From NCBI RefSeq assembly GCF_033100135.1, contig NZ_CP136920.1, positions 3,901,001 through 3,965,000 on the forward strand: DNA of 64,000 nt, in the 5' to 3' direction. This DNA is from Rubellicoccus peritrichatus (GTDB taxonomy: Bacteria > Verrucomicrobiota > Verrucomicrobiia > Opitutales > Cerasicoccaceae). The notes under the pieces are model-generated. The model was not told where the DNA came from. It worked only from the letters and a program-made list of their open reading frames with translations, and made no database searches. Made by a program: the position numbers and the translations under genes. Within the stretch, counting starts at the first letter, position 1. Every line of letters begins with the position of its first letter. This document shows, one piece after another, positions 41,449 to 46,468 of this stretch.

Positions 41449-42264
41449 TCAGTTTAAAGTATCAATACTTTGAGGTGCTCCCAAACCAACGTTTCTCAGA
41501 CCTAGTGTGAAGAATGCACCAAGAAACCGCGCATCATTTGCCCAGTCAAAAGCCTTTCCATTGAGTCGCAAGGCAACTTGAGCCCGATGCATGCGCCATG
41601 GATCATGGTCAACCTGGAAACGCATCGCCTCATGACCACGCAAGGTATAAGCATGATAACGTTCGTGCAGAAAAAACTCAGGCGTATCTGGTTTAGCAGC
41701 ATCCAATGGCGCCAACGCGTAACCAGCCTCCAACTCCAACTGGTCGCTCAATCCATGAACATTTGCTCGAAAACGACGCTGGTGACGATCATGTTGATAA
41801 TTAATTTTCGCCAAATGGTAGGGCAACCCGTAAAGCAAAGGCCCGATAATTCTTGCTAGAGCATTGTTAATATATTCTGTCATAAAGAAGATCGCACTGA
41901 GTCCTTCATGTTTCACATAAGTTCTGATATTCAGAAAGGCATGACCATCCACCGGCCAGGTTAATGCCTTGGCCCATGGCCCATACTCAGCGAAGCGTAG
42001 ATGCGTCTGCCGAAATGCCACAAACGTAACGAAGGCCTCACCTTCAAATGTATCTAAATGAAAAGGGACCTGCCCCTGGATCACTTCGGGAGTCACCGCA
42101 AAGTGAACCATGAGCAGGTCCTCCCAATCCGCATAAAACAACGGAAAGGGTTTCTTTTGACCATAACCTTCAGTTAGCATTGTTTGAGCTACCGGAGGCC
42201 TATGGTCAGGCATGGCGGGAGGAATTGTTTTCATGGTAGAGATGATCGGAATTCTTATAAGCAA
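41449..42264 (-). CDS. DUF2071 (YqjF-like) protein
   Basis: The 271-residue protein begins at ATG 42264, or at 42234 (MKTIPP). DUF2071 features: 'PFPLFYADWEDLLMVHFAVTPEVIQGQVPFHLDTFEGEAFVTFVAFRQTHLRF' (about 40-90), 'GHAFLNIRTYVKHEGLSAIFFMTEYINNALA' and 'LPYHLAKINYQHD'. The fold is related to acetoacetate decarboxylase; enzymatic activity is unproven. The 42234 start leaves the upstream gene's stop separated by 31 bases; the 42264 start overlaps it. It is the last gene of the acyltransferase cluster. Confidence 0.85.
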   Translation of the reverse strand: MLIRIPIISTMKTIPPAMPDHRPPVAQTMLTEGYGQKKPFPLFYADWEDLLMVHFAVTPEVIQGQVPFHLDTFEGEAFVTFVAFRQTHLRFAEYGPWAKALTWPVDGHAFLNIRTYVKHEGLSAIFFMTEYINNALARIIGPLLYGLPYHLAKINYQHDRHQRRFRANVHGLSDQLELEAGYALAPLDAAKPDTPEFFLHERYHAYTLRGHEAMRFQVDHDPWRMHRAQVALRLNGKAFDWANDARFLGAFFTLGLRNVGLGAPQSIDTLN

Positions 42265-42265
42265 C

Positions 42266-42709
42266 TCAGTCTGTGACTGGCCACTGGTTCACGATAAAGA
42301 CGAGCACATAGACAACTGCCAGGTATCCAAAGAGAAGATTGAATGCCCAGGCACCGATGCGAAATAGTCGTTTCTTTTCGGTGATTTCCTCTGTGTTGTA
42401 ATAGGTTAAGGCAACAATCAGTCGTCCGCCCCAATATACTCCAATGATCAGGGCTAGTGCCGCGACTATGATGTTGGTTTCAAGAAACACGGGTGCGAAC
42501 AACAAGGTCAACAGACCAAATGCAAAATTAAGTCCCTGGATGTAACGGCTGTATGTATTCGTGATCTGCCGATTCCAAACATGCTTCATGCGCGCAAGGT
42601 CTGCATCCCATTCAAGGATACGCCGCACCCACTCATAAATCAGTGCTACGAAAACCTGGCCCGCACCTGCAATATAAAGCATTAGAATTAGTGTATCTGT
42701 ATTTCTCAT
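42266..42709 (-). CDS. Four-helix membrane protein, paralog A of the acyltransferase cluster
   Basis: A 147-residue protein with four hydrophobic segments (about 5-25, 60-80, 85-105, 120-140). It opens 'LYIAGAGQVFVALIYEWVRRI' and contains 'TYSRYIQGLNFAFGLLTLLFAP', which is nearly identical to the 44174 gene ('TYGRYIQGLNFAFGLIAIIYAP'), and the C-terminal 'RIGAWAFNLLFGYLAVVYVLV'. It is a paralog of the 43681 and 44174 proteins. I do not recognise a named family. It starts 15 bases after the MBOAT gene's stop. Confidence 0.8.
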   Translation of the reverse strand: MRNTDTLILMLYIAGAGQVFVALIYEWVRRILEWDADLARMKHVWNRQITNTYSRYIQGLNFAFGLLTLLFAPVFLETNIIVAALALIIGVYWGGRLIVALTYYNTEEITEKKRLFRIGAWAFNLLFGYLAVVYVLVFIVNQWPVTD

Positions 42710-42724
42710 GATATGTTCAGAATT

Positions 42725-43681
42725 TTATTTGATTAACGGAAGAATGATTTCCATGATGAAGGCTGGGTGAAATAAAAGTGGCAGCGGTAGTAGAACCCAA
42801 ACAGCCGTCCAAATCCGACCTGCCCGTTTCCAATTTTTCTCGTAGGCCATTGCTACGGCCTGGATTCCAAAATAAGTTGTCGGAAGGCCGTAACCGGCAT
42901 TTACCGGAACGCTAATTGCCAGTTCATGGGCTAGGCCGCTAAAGACAAAAGCTCCAGTCCTTGCTATCGTTTCTCCAAAGCGAGCTTTCAAAGGCCGAAA
43001 GATCGCCAAAGTCGTCATTTCAGTGAATGCGATGTTCCAACGGCGTCCCCAAAATTCAGCCAAGGTTCGAGCCTTGAATGGTGCATTGAATAGATTGCCA
43101 ACCGGAACACCGATCCAACGCCAGAATCCGGCCATAACATTGAACAAGCCAAAATGTAGCACCAAGCTAAGCCCCGGCATCAAAAGAAGTAATGCAACCG
43201 GAATTTTCAAGATACCCGGCATTCCATCGTTCACATCTGCCCAGAAGAATCGCGCTCCAAGAATGAGAAGGAAACCAAGAATAATGCGAAGTGCTCCTTT
43301 TCTTATTAACCGCCCAGTTCCAGCAATCCTGCCTTGACCCATTTTCTTAAAGACCATTGGACGCATGCCGAACCAACCAACTGTATATGCAATCCATTGA
43401 ACAAAATTGAGGGCATTTCCATTAGTCATCTGATGTGTGGCGACCACCGCCTTCATTCCGTAAAGCAAGGCCAATATAAGAACAATCATACGAAAGCCAG
43501 GAGGTTGATCTAGCGTGATCAAGAACATCGCAAAAACTCCAATGGTCGTTAAGCCCCAGGCCATCACCACCCTCGTCTTGTTTTGATTTTTTTGGATAGC
43601 AAAACCAAATAGAATCTCGACCAAAAGAATTATTGCCCCCTGGATGGCTTGCTCAATACCAGTTGGAAAGTAAGCATTCAT
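42725..43681 (-). CDS. MBOAT / wax-synthase-like membrane O-acyltransferase
   Basis: The ATG at 43681 gives a 318-residue protein; a start 27 codons upstream is within the preceding gene and less likely. It has about eight hydrophobic segments. The wax synthase domain is marked by 'LAEFWGRRWNIAFTEMTTLAIFRPL' (about 205-230) and the catalytic His in 'FSGLAHELAISVPVNAGYGLP' (about 245-265), as in plant-type wax ester synthase and MBOAT_2 proteins. These transfer acyl groups from acyl-CoA to alcohols. The start ATG overlaps the upstream stop by one base (TAATG), suggesting translational coupling. Confidence 0.8.
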   Translation of the reverse strand: MNAYFPTGIEQAIQGAIILLVEILFGFAIQKNQNKTRVVMAWGLTTIGVFAMFLITLDQPPGFRMIVLILALLYGMKAVVATHQMTNGNALNFVQWIAYTVGWFGMRPMVFKKMGQGRIAGTGRLIRKGALRIILGFLLILGARFFWADVNDGMPGILKIPVALLLLMPGLSLVLHFGLFNVMAGFWRWIGVPVGNLFNAPFKARTLAEFWGRRWNIAFTEMTTLAIFRPLKARFGETIARTGAFVFSGLAHELAISVPVNAGYGLPTTYFGIQAVAMAYEKNWKRAGRIWTAVWVLLPLPLLFHPAFIMEIILPLIK

Positions 43682-44118
43682 TAGATGGCCTCCTGTAGAT
43701 TGAGGCCAAAAGCCCATCCGTAAACAGCTGTGAAAAAAGTAAACAAAAGAGTCAGAACCCAATCGCCTACTTTGAACATCAAACCTTTAGGAGCTGCGGC
43801 TTTATCAATAACAAACAGCTGCAGCACAAGTCGTACTGCCCAATACAGGAACATAAAGCCAGTCAAAGCAGTAACAAGCGGAGTATGTGCAATGAGTTCG
43901 ACCGGAAACCCAACCGTTACAAATCCGATAAAGAGATTTGTCGTAAAGATATAGCCGGCATAAATCCAGAACACCTGCCGCGTAACAGGCTCTAGCTTTG
44001 CGGTTTCAGCACGCCAGTTTAACCAGACCGGCAAACGAATGACCGCTGTCATCATCACAACCTGACCCGCGCCAACTGCTATTAGTAAAAAGCTTAGTAG
44101 TGTTTGCATGTCTCTCAT
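43681..44118 (-). CDS. Four-helix membrane protein, paralog B of the acyltransferase cluster
   Basis: A 145-residue protein with about four hydrophobic segments. It begins 'TLLSFLLIAVGAGQVVMMTAVIRLPVWLNWRAETAKLEPVTRQVFWIYAGYIFTTNLFIG' and ends 'MFKVGDWVLTLLFTFFTAVYGWAF', aligning with paralogs A and C at the GAGQ start, the 'A-K-L-P' cytoplasmic loop and the 'F+(I/V)G-W' helix, though it is the most diverged of the three. An 18-bp palindrome (44140-44157) sits 22 bases upstream. Its stop overlaps the MBOAT start. Confidence 0.78.
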   Translation of the reverse strand: MRDMQTLLSFLLIAVGAGQVVMMTAVIRLPVWLNWRAETAKLEPVTRQVFWIYAGYIFTTNLFIGFVTVGFPVELIAHTPLVTALTGFMFLYWAVRLVLQLFVIDKAAAPKGLMFKVGDWVLTLLFTFFTAVYGWAFGLNLQEAI

Positions 44119-44139
44119 TTTTATTCCCTTTTTAAAAAC

Positions 44140-44157
44140 TTTCAGTTTTTACTGAAA
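44140..44157. promoter_or_regulatory. 18-bp palindromic operator, copy 2
   Basis: TTTCAGTTTTTACTGAAA: arms TTTCAGTT and TACTGAAA pair at seven of eight positions around a TT centre. It lies 22 bases upstream of the start of membrane paralog B, and matches the copies at 44626 and 45369 in sequence and spacing. It is therefore a likely binding site for the GbsR-like regulator encoded upstream. Confidence 0.75.
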
Positions 44158-44173
44158 CTTCATGCTTAAAAAA

Positions 44174-44608
44174 TCAGTGATACTGCTCCCAAAGGTTTGC
44201 AACGAACAGCAAGGTGTAGAGCACTGCAAAGTAGATGAACAAAATATTCATACCAATCTCTCCGATACGAAATATCATCTTCTTAGGGATCTCATACATT
44301 GGGTAATGCAGGAACTGGACTGCGATTTTTCCAACCCAGTATGCTGCTATCAGACCTGTCAACGCAACAGCCAGCGGTGTGCCATCAATCAGATCGGGGG
44401 CATAAATAATCGCAATTAATCCGAAAGCAAAATTAAGCCCCTGAATGTAACGACCATATGTTTTAGCAATTTGTTGATTCAATGGCCGCAGTTTTTTGAT
44501 ATCTTCATACCAGCCAAAAACGACATGGCGAATGTATGGGTAAATTATAGCGGTAAATATCTGCCCTATTCCACCCACAATTATTGCATATTCTATCCAG
44601 GTTTTCAT
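44174..44608 (-). CDS. Four-helix membrane protein, paralog C of the acyltransferase cluster
   Basis: A 144-residue protein with four hydrophobic segments. It opens 'WIEYAIIVGGIGQIFTAIIYPYIRHVVFGWYEDIKKLRPLNQQIAKTYGRYIQGLNFAFGLIAIIYAP' and ends with a 'RIGEIGMNILFIYFAVLYTLLFV' helix. Strong identity to paralog A around 'YIQGLNFAFGL' shows gene duplication. A near-palindrome (44626-44643) lies 17 bases before the start codon. It is the first structural gene of the block after the regulator and small basic ORF. Confidence 0.8.
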   Translation of the reverse strand: MKTWIEYAIIVGGIGQIFTAIIYPYIRHVVFGWYEDIKKLRPLNQQIAKTYGRYIQGLNFAFGLIAIIYAPDLIDGTPLAVALTGLIAAYWVGKIAVQFLHYPMYEIPKKMIFRIGEIGMNILFIYFAVLYTLLFVANLWEQYH

Positions 44609-44625
44609 TTTATTAAATATCGAAT

Positions 44626-44643
44626 TTTCAGTAAATATTGAAA
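44626..44643. promoter_or_regulatory. 18-bp palindromic operator, copy 3
   Basis: TTTCAGTAAATATTGAAA: arms TTTCAGTA and TATTGAAA pair at seven of eight positions around an AA centre. It lies 17 bases before the start of paralog C and directly beside the stop of the 49-residue ORF, so it could be bound to control the downstream membrane genes separately from the regulator. Confidence 0.72.
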
Positions 44644-44644
44644 G

Positions 44645-44794
44645 TTAAATCTTAAAAATAAAGTAGAATAAACCAAATCCACGGAACGCTTGTAAATTAC
44701 GAGCCAAACGACGTCGATGACCACCCGTCACCTTGCGATATGGACGTTTTGCTATAATATCTTTCTTTCGCTTATCATAAGTGGTCTTTTTCAT
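44645..44794 (-). CDS. Small basic protein, 49 residues (unlisted short ORF)
   Basis: The ATG at 44794 is preceded by AGAGGA, five bases away, a good Shine-Dalgarno. The protein runs MKKTTYDKRKKDIIAKRPYR, then about 20 more basic residues ('VTGGHRRRLARNLQAFRGFG') and a hydrophobic end 'LFYFIFKI'. It is the first gene after the regulator, with a 30-base gap, and its stop abuts operator copy 3. A match to a named family is not obvious; a nucleic-acid- or membrane-surface-binding peptide is possible. Confidence 0.7.
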   Translation of the reverse strand: MKKTTYDKRKKDIIAKRPYRKVTGGHRRRLARNLQAFRGFGLFYFIFKI

Positions 44795-44824
44795 CACATT
44801 CCTCTCTCGATTGAATATTTTCCT

Positions 44825-45361
44825 CTACCCTTTCTTTGCTCCGAGTGCCTTAAGGATCATGGGGACGACTTTGCTGCGTTCGCTTCGTGATATCCTGTCC
44901 ATTGCGGTATCTGCCAAGGCTACAAAATCAGCCAAATCGTCCATCATGGTATGAAAAGCAACTCCTTCCTTGGAGCGTTCCCCTTTAGTCACATCAGCAC
45001 AATCGCGCAACACCTCTAGGGCTGGTTGTATCTCGCGACGCTTCCGCTCTTTACTGATGGCACAAAACATTTTCCAAACATCTTTTTCCGCTTCAAAGAA
45101 CTCCTTACGCTCACCAGGAACAAAATAGCTGCGGATCAAGCCCCACCCCACAAGGTCGCGGAGGTTGGTATTTGCATTTCCACGACTGATCTGGAGCTCT
45201 TCCATGATCGTATTGGTATCAAGTGGTTCGGCACTGATCATTAGAAATGCATGAATCTGGGCCATTGTCCGATTGATTCCCCAGCTGCTACCCATCGCTC
45301 CCCACTGACGAATGAAATTTTCACGGGCATCGTTGAGCTTATCTGCATTTGTACTTTTCAT
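44825..45361 (-). CDS. GbsR/MarR-type transcriptional regulator
   Basis: The 178-residue protein has a winged-helix DNA-binding domain of GbsR type: 'FIRQWGAMGSSWGINRTMAQIHAFLMISAEPLDTNTIMEELQISRGNANTNLRDLVGWGLIRSYFVPGERKEFFEAEKDVW' (about 15-95). The rest is helical with 'FVALADTAMDRI'. GbsR relatives control osmoprotectant or membrane-related genes. A perfect 18-bp palindrome lies eight bases before its ATG, so autoregulation is likely, and matching sites precede the two membrane-protein genes downstream. Confidence 0.85.
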   Translation of the reverse strand: MKSTNADKLNDARENFIRQWGAMGSSWGINRTMAQIHAFLMISAEPLDTNTIMEELQISRGNANTNLRDLVGWGLIRSYFVPGERKEFFEAEKDVWKMFCAISKERKRREIQPALEVLRDCADVTKGERSKEGVAFHTMMDDLADFVALADTAMDRISRSERSKVVPMILKALGAKKG

Positions 45362-45368
45362 TTTATAC

Positions 45369-45386
45369 TTTCAGTATTTACTGAAA
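45369..45386. promoter_or_regulatory. 18-bp palindromic operator, copy 1 (regulator's own promoter)
   Basis: TTTCAGTATTTACTGAAA is a perfect palindrome of two 8-base arms around TT. It lies just upstream of the GbsR-like gene's start codon (start at 45361), the expected place for autorepression. The same motif recurs at 44140 and 44626 with one mismatch in each. Confidence 0.78.
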
Positions 45387-45499
45387 CATCAAGCAAGTCA
45401 AATAGTTTCTGCAAAAATTAGATTCTAAGCAAATCAACAGCAAACAGCCTTGATGCTGTTGACAACTCGAATCCATTGCCTAGTCCTCGACTAATTGAA

Positions 45500-46468
45500 A
45501 TGAAAACTCAAAGCATACTGATTCTTGCCTTTATCTTCGTTATTGTGGGCGGTTGTTCCAATCGAGACGATCAGAACATACCTGGAAATAAGGAAAAAGT
45601 CATCGTCCAGCTGGATTGGGTCCCAGAGCCGGAGCATGGCGGACTATATCAGGCACTTGCCAAAGGATATTTCGCGGATGCAGGCCTGGATGTTACGCTT
45701 CTTCCCGGAGGTGCCAATATAGCAGTGATTGAGAGTGTCGCAGTTGGCCAGGCGGATGTTGGACAATCGGCAAGTACCCAAGTCATCACTGCGGCATCCC
45801 GTGATCTGCCGATAAAGAATATCGCAAGTGTATTTCATCAGATCCCAACGGCTTTGATGCTTCATGAAGATAACCCCATTGATAGTTTTTCCGAATTGGA
45901 TAAAAAAACGATCATGGCACGCCCGGAGGCACTCTACATACCCTTCATAAAAGAAAAGTATGGAATCGATTTCGATGTTATCCCGCAGAATTTCGGCCTC
46001 GGGATGCTCATCAATGATCCGAAATTCATTCAAGAAGGTTTCTATATTGCAGAGCCTTTCTTCGCTGAAAAAGAAGGCGTCAAATTAAAGTTTCTTCGGC
46101 TTTCGGAGGCAGGTTATGAGGTCTATGCCACATTATTTGCAAACGACAATTTTCTCGAGTCCCGCCCAGAGGTTGCTGCAGCCTTTGTCGATGCCTTCAT
46201 AAAAGGCTGGGCTGATTACCTTGAAGGTGACCCTACTCCAGCCCACGAAGCAATCAAAGCAGCCCGCAATGGCGAGGTGGATGATGACTTTCTCAATTTC
46301 TCTCGGGAGATGATTATTACAGAAAACCTTGGACGTGGTAATCCGAAAAAAAATGAGACTTACGGTTCTATCAACAAGAGCCGACTGGCAAATGAGATTA
46401 AAATGCTGGAAGCGTTAGGCGCTATTGAGTCGGGGAGCGTAAGCGTTGAGGAAATTCTTTATGAGTAA
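45500..46468 (+). CDS. NMT1/THI5-like substrate-binding lipoprotein (ABC type)
   Basis: The ATG at 45500 gives 322 residues (a TTG 24 bases upstream would add eight residues). It has a lipoprotein signal 'LILAFIFVIVGGCSN' with Cys at about residue 19. The 'QLDWVPEPEHGGLYQALAKGYFADAGLDVTLLPGGANIAVIESVAVGQADVGQ' stretch (about 35-90) is the NMT1-like domain that binds pyrimidine, sulfonate or nitrate-type substrates. No permease or ATPase genes adjoin it; an orphan binding protein. Divergent from the regulator. Confidence 0.82.
   Translation: MKTQSILILAFIFVIVGGCSNRDDQNIPGNKEKVIVQLDWVPEPEHGGLYQALAKGYFADAGLDVTLLPGGANIAVIESVAVGQADVGQSASTQVITAASRDLPIKNIASVFHQIPTALMLHEDNPIDSFSELDKKTIMARPEALYIPFIKEKYGIDFDVIPQNFGLGMLINDPKFIQEGFYIAEPFFAEKEGVKLKFLRLSEAGYEVYATLFANDNFLESRPEVAAAFVDAFIKGWADYLEGDPTPAHEAIKAARNGEVDDDFLNFSREMIITENLGRGNPKKNETYGSINKSRLANEIKMLEALGAIESGSVSVEEILYE

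Follow-up and report, generated by a model that had tools for sequence, protein, structure and literature searches.

A candidate GbsR-type regulon in Rubellicoccus peritrichatus with an MBOAT acyltransferase, small four-helix membrane proteins and a probably mosaic history

We analysed a 64,000-nucleotide stretch of the Rubellicoccus peritrichatus genome (hereafter the window; contig NZ_CP136920.1, positions 3,901,001 to 3,965,000), and within it a run of seven genes, all on the minus strand from position 45361 down to 41449, which encode in this order a GbsR-type regulator, a small basic open reading frame (ORF), the small membrane proteins ParC and ParB, an MBOAT-family enzyme, a third small membrane protein, ParA, and a DUF2071 protein. 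We found that this locus is very probably a regulon under its own GbsR-type regulator and, with a probability of roughly two in three, we read it as a membrane-lipid module that is under a repressor and has a mosaic origin. The gene order and coordinates agree with the first-pass annotation, a model's reading of the sequence alone, and its candidate regulon with a dedicated GbsR-type regulator appears likely in the light of palindromes that precede the regulator gene, parC and parB.

The palindrome, an 18-bp sequence of the form TTTCAGTAAWWACTGAAA, occurs at three places, each directly upstream of a gene and each read on the minus strand. Counted from the start of the gene that follows, candidate operator 1 (TTTCAGTAAATACTGAAA, 45369-45386) spans -25 to -8 (regulator), candidate operator 2 (TTTCAATATTTACTGAAA, 44626-44643) spans -35 to -18 (parC), and candidate operator 3 (TTTCAGTAAAAACTGAAA, 44140-44157) spans -39 to -22 (parB). 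When up to three mismatches are allowed, the window holds six strand matches, that is three sites, compared to 0.29 from shuffled sequences. The rest of the 5.8-Mb genome contains no further match at one mismatch or fewer, and a looser half-site search of the genome returned three extra places with perfect half-sites, one of which alone resembles the operator core. Candidate operator 1 shares bases with the AATACT hexamer of a promoter-like TTGACT-17-AATACT pair; promoter-like matches across the region number five, not above the 7.5 of shuffles. The first-pass annotation was silent on the three palindromes, yet the region it described ends at 45386, where one of them has its edge. This extra place that resembles the core of the operator (L221:3162-3179; G000:C1:2832661-2832678) lies about 30 bases before a gene for a 106-amino-acid cupin-like protein that stands after a flavoprotein-like gene (both named by eye). 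In a genome of the same family (L180:4757-5517), the regulator lies between two palindromes, the second of which precedes a phosphoenolpyruvate carboxykinase-like gene, again named by eye.

The regulator itself (178 amino acids, 45361-44825, minus strand, MarR fold) matches the CudC model at an E value of 8e-13 with 48.6 bits, under the 218-bit equivalog cut-off of that model, and the PDB sequence of MJ223 (1ku9) at E = 3e-13, so that the earlier naming of a GbsR-type protein holds as a sequence relationship. Its recognition helix reads ISRGNAN. We compared 46 regulator loci, comprising 11 named loci from Bacteroidota, the window, and 34 stretches from genomes of its class, Verrucomicrobiia. 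These 34 were chosen by hand and consist of 20 regulator matches together with those among 20 MBOAT loci in which a regulator was recognised, and half-sites were searched from -120 to +60 of the called regulator start. The Bacteroidota regulators were assigned by a fixed score to the group closer to the window's regulator (phmmer E values of about 2e-41 to 6e-48), and they carry the recognition helix typical of that group. The form TTTCA-N8-TGAAA was found at 32 of the 36 loci with closer regulators (21/25 in the class and 11/11 in Bacteroidota) and at none of the 10 with distant ones, whereas TTTCT-N8-AGAAA, shifted by one letter, was found at 5/10 distant and 0/36 closer loci; shuffled flanks yield 0.045 and 0.04 loci, respectively. 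The recognition helix varies in step, with S and G at positions 59 and 61 in all 36 closer regulators and A and S in all 10 distant ones, and with A or T at position 63 in the former versus V in the latter, whose helix takes the form VARSNVS. Furthermore, 10 of the 11 Bacteroidota loci carry a second site between the regulator and the next gene. This covariation of half-site and helix is strong sequence evidence that the palindrome is the regulator's predicted binding site.

The MBOAT enzyme (318 amino acids, 43681-42725, minus strand) matches the MBOAT_2 profile (PF13813) at E = 2e-9, with 37.9 bits against a cut-off of 25. In a PDB sequence-profile search with the enzyme, DGAT1 was the sole acyltransferase found, and in a fold search with the predicted structure of a homologous MBOAT fusion a plant DGAT1 ranked first (E = 3e-4). 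The histidine of its SGLAHE block is kept in 70/70 aligned homologues and the asparagine of FWGRRWN in every row with a letter at that column; both are also invariant in a 17-row MBOAT alignment that includes the window. These two residues are catalytic in the MBOAT family, and one PDB title among the fold matches names a histidine mutant of DGAT1. The acyltransferase reading of the first-pass annotation is thus borne out by the profile match, by DGAT1 in both searches and by the invariant residues; the sequence supports an acyltransferase of the DGAT/wax-synthase kind, and its use in wax or ester synthesis may be proposed from this kinship. Its ATG (43681) overlaps the TAA of parB by one base in the string TAATG, with AGGAGG in front; since this ATG sits in the parB stop codon behind AGGAGG, a TTG start at 43762 is probably unused.

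The gene overlapped by that of the enzyme, parB (44118-43681, minus strand), encodes the small protein that is likely its partner, and pairing of this kind recurs widely. The MBOAT query matched 29 of 236 genomes of the class, of which we retained 21 strong matches (E of 3.5e-15 or better, window included) and left out eight weaker ones (E from 7e-7 to 6e-4), in whose loci there is no small protein. A small protein stands beside the MBOAT gene in 20/21 of these loci; in the remaining case it lies at a distance of about 8 kb, which brings the count to 21/21 at the genome level. Among 80 named loci, the best 80 of 343 from an MBOAT-only search, 79 contain at least one small protein (76 one, three two), and their record titles place such pairs in Planctomycetota, Bacteroidota, Bacillota, Myxococcota and other groups. 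The gap between the two genes is at most 15 bases in 74 of 78 measured cases, 34 of which are four-base overlaps. We also found a natural fusion of MBOAT and small protein in one 459-amino-acid frame (L024:1045-2424, with the same place recovered in L199) in a single-contig genome. The enzyme gene is thus rarely without a small protein. The first-pass annotation had also asked about its co-occurrence with the GbsR gene, and there the answer is partial: a stretch of 6-15 kb around the enzyme gene includes the regulator in 15/21 class loci, and the regulator is present at 11/80 named loci.

ParA, ParB and ParC are the three members of the small family found in the genome. All three begin with GAGQ or GIGQ and ParA and ParC, not ParB, have the core RYIQGLNFAFGL in common, as the first-pass annotation had described for the starts and for a core present in two of them. 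ParA is 42% identical to ParC and 32% to ParB, and a genome search with ParA alone retrieved ParC at E = 8e-31 and ParB at E = 1e-10. None of the three has a Pfam match at E = 1, and NCBIfam returned noise only; a scan of 19 family members gave 11 families, each for one member, with a best E of 0.015, PDB sequences gave no match up to E = 10, and viral contigs held no relative of the three. Across Pfam, NCBIfam and PDB, the small proteins match no already named, unrelated family. The predicted structure of ParC (44608-44174, minus strand) is a confident four-helix bundle with a predicted local distance difference test score of 94. A search for a named fold, including the four-helix fold of the sigma-2 receptor/EBP kind, gave no significant structural match for the small protein: the best Foldseek E for any chain was 0.4, and the sigma-2 receptor, at a Z score of about 8, falls in a range common for helical bundles. 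A contact surface was likewise sought from the model of the natural fusion and set aside, the domain placement not being confident. A second branch of the small family occurs at three loci (L237, L239, L244) of class genomes without an MBOAT match, where its gene adjoins those for a membrane-anchored methyltransferase-like protein (named by eye) and a DUF2071-like one; in L239 it is flanked by two TTTCT-type sites.

The remaining genes connect the locus to a simpler arrangement in related genomes. ParA (42709-42266, minus strand) belongs to a lineage that occurs with the regulator and DUF2071 in related genomes, and the DUF2071 protein (start at 42264 with TTG or at 42234 with ATG, end at 41449, minus strand) matches PF09844 at E = 1e-32, with 113.5 bits against a cut-off of 27; this family is of acetoacetate-decarboxylase-like fold and, in the available portion of one report, is described without the Schiff-base lysine of that enzyme (PMC4520260). 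A locus in another genus of the same family (L256, genome G236) carries a regulator 79% identical to the window's, a ParA-type protein (59%), DUF2071 (61%) and a small basic ORF. Half-sites that deviate by one mismatch precede its regulator and par genes, and parC, parB and MBOAT are absent. The small basic ORF (44794-44645, minus strand, 49 amino acids) is putatively coding, with a GGHRxRLxR core common to the ORF at the same place in L256, which held the one counterpart among the other loci searched. In three further genomes of the family (G238, G239, G241), the regulator occurs with a single ParA-type protein, accompanied by DUF2071 or DCC-type genes. The MBOAT query found no match in 11 genomes checked, nine of the same family plus G203 and G263, and the same query does match elsewhere. 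ParA shares 53-63% identity with single proteins from five genomes that gave no MBOAT match and groups in the tree with the protein of another regulator-par-DUF2071 locus (G203; 63%), and ParC shares 70% identity with the product of a stand-alone gene from another family of the same order (L260), whose 9.5-kb stretch has no regulator. In the MBOAT tree the window's enzyme joins 36 Bacteroidota rows with support of 97/91, and 16 MBOATs of the class, in which the usual order is MBOAT then par, form a separate group; the named rows were chosen as most like the query, so the sampling leans toward this grouping.

Because ParA and ParC are closer to proteins elsewhere, the three Par lineages appear older than the locus, and the related loci together with the tree rule out a recent tandem triplication. 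On the simplest reading of these sequences, an older unit of regulator, small ORF, parA and DUF2071 acquired parC and the parB-MBOAT pair, which gained an operator; their position between the small ORF and parA would account for their coming under the same repressor. We propose that the GbsR-type protein, a winged-helix repressor acting as a dimer, would bind the palindromes before its own gene, before parC and before parB-MBOAT-parA-DUF2071, and that a small ligand would release it; an aromatic cage that binds a small-molecule inducer has been proposed for GbsR and OpuAR. Like DGAT1 or wax synthase, the enzyme would use acyl-coenzyme A to acylate a lipid alcohol within the membrane. ParB, translated together with the enzyme, would serve as its four-helix partner, and ParA would work with DUF2071 in the older, GbsR-regulated part.

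Several observations weigh against this proposal, and they bear in turn on the other explanations that we considered. Concerning the history, the GC content at third codon positions (GC3) of MBOAT and parB is 0.45, ordinary for the window (0.47, standard deviation 0.04), such that composition gives no sign of insertion and no support either way; in the small-protein tree ParB is placed, on a long branch that lacks starred support, among partners from Planctomycetota and Bacteroidota, and the MBOAT gene may have been lost in relatives rather than gained here. Concerning the partnership, of the 31 class genomes that encode a small protein, 10 gave no MBOAT match (one such locus being on a 6.5-kb contig), which means that the small proteins do not depend on the company of this enzyme only, and the model of the natural fusion reaches a predicted template modelling score of 0.67 with a low-confidence linker, from which no interface can be read. 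Two small proteins occur at 5/20 other class MBOAT loci and at 3/80 named ones, meaning that extra copies beside the enzyme do recur. This last point favours the earlier view of a single MBOAT complex in which all three small proteins, derived from triplication at the locus, are subunits. So does the finding that a run of seven genes includes the only three homologues detected in the genome, with a core common to ParA and ParC. We nevertheless consider that view unlikely, given that the A and C lineages occur without MBOAT in related genomes, as the ParA relatives in five of them and the stand-alone ParC relative illustrate, and that 76/80 named loci have exactly one small protein. ParA and ParC could have been recruited to the enzyme's complex later.

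The extent of the regulator's control is the next matter, since no such regulator was found in the examined stretch at 6/21 class and 69/80 named MBOAT loci. MBOAT and ParB might then form a self-contained unit, with the regulator acting only on itself, on the ParA-DUF2071 unit, or on a divergent gene for an NMT1/THI5-like substrate-binding protein (45476-46468, plus strand), whose upstream region, palindrome included, is common to both genes. That gene could be the regulator's real partner, and the related locus with regulator, parA and DUF2071 only is in line with such a division. The perfect palindrome right before parB, the regulator near MBOAT in 14 other class genomes, and the same-strand arrangement at 11 Bacteroidota loci, where the regulator gene is upstream of the pair and palindromes precede the regulator in 11/11 and the next gene in 10/11, make this division quite improbable; on the reading of a regulon that includes the enzyme, the NMT1/THI5-like gene might be a further target. 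As for the chemistry, DltB came nearly level with DGAT1 in the fold search of the fusion (E = 9e-4) and a DltB model matched the window's enzyme weakly (E = 0.002, far below its cut-off), and MBOAT-SGNH pairs are common in bacteria according to the available part of a report (PMC12148441). That the enzyme makes no lipid ester and, as DltB or PatA do, delivers an acyl group through the membrane to a polymer of the wall or surface is nonetheless unlikely: the PDB sequence profile finds DGAT1 and not DltB, and the Pfam-scanned neighbours are DUF2071, DCC and DUF1731-epimerase proteins, with no search aimed at SGNH partners.

Upon placing the locus beside known systems, we find parts of known kinds in what looks like an undescribed regulon, with an operator code and a partner family that look equally new, and a search of open-licence papers found no description of this gene combination. 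The regulator resembles the GbsR family of MarR-type repressors, a kind of switch known above all for its role in salt stress (GbsR, OpuAR, OpcR, YvaV and CydE, as given in the available text of PMC6207618), in sequence and as a small regulator gene beside its likely targets, which here are genes of lipid type versus betaine, Opu or cytochrome bd genes there; betaine-synthesis, Opu-transporter and cytochrome bd genes were absent among the eight window genes scanned with Pfam, and the NMT1/THI5-like protein scored below threshold for OpuAC (E = 0.04). In the portion of that 2018 survey available to us, four neighbourhood classes are distinguished, of which none has lipid genes, and 73 of 179 homologues, primarily from Euryarchaeota and Bacteroidetes, are without a class (PMC6207618). 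The enzyme shares with the DGAT1/wax synthase branch its MBOAT_2 match, the profile and fold hits and the invariant residues, and differs in being bacterial, about 320 amino acids long and accompanied by a four-helix partner gene or domain. With DltB and PatA-PatB it has in common an MBOAT encoded beside a dedicated partner (PatA-PatB pairing as described in the available part of PMC12148441), which here is a four-helix membrane protein and not an SGNH protein.

The usual Bacteroidota order is regulator, DCC-type protein or its membrane part, DUF1731 epimerase, small protein and MBOAT, with domain names taken from one locus (L084), and among 41 stretches mapped, epimerase clusters cover 16 and DUF2071 clusters 10. 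At six class regulator loci (L182, L196, L197, L198, L200, L202), we noted by eye a gene resembling DUF805 fused to an SRPBCC lipid-binding domain. A broader joint reading, on which we are evenly divided, would define a new functional class of GbsR regulators, namely a lipid-remodelling regulon in Bacteroidota and the window's class whose operator changes in step with the recognition helix; its core would be a new four-helix family serving as exchangeable partners of MBOAT, of the membrane-anchored methyltransferase-like protein and of DUF2071, with enzyme-partner cassettes exchanged within the regulon from one lineage to another, of which the present locus would be an example. If true, this would supply a function class, together with its operator, for GbsR-type regulators of the kind that the survey left without one in Bacteroidetes, and a direct test of specificity would be at hand in one operator letter per half-site and three helix residues. 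It would also draw attention to an unannotated but widespread companion of DGAT/wax-synthase-like enzymes in bacteria, through which the biology of bacterial ester lipids could become open to direct tests.

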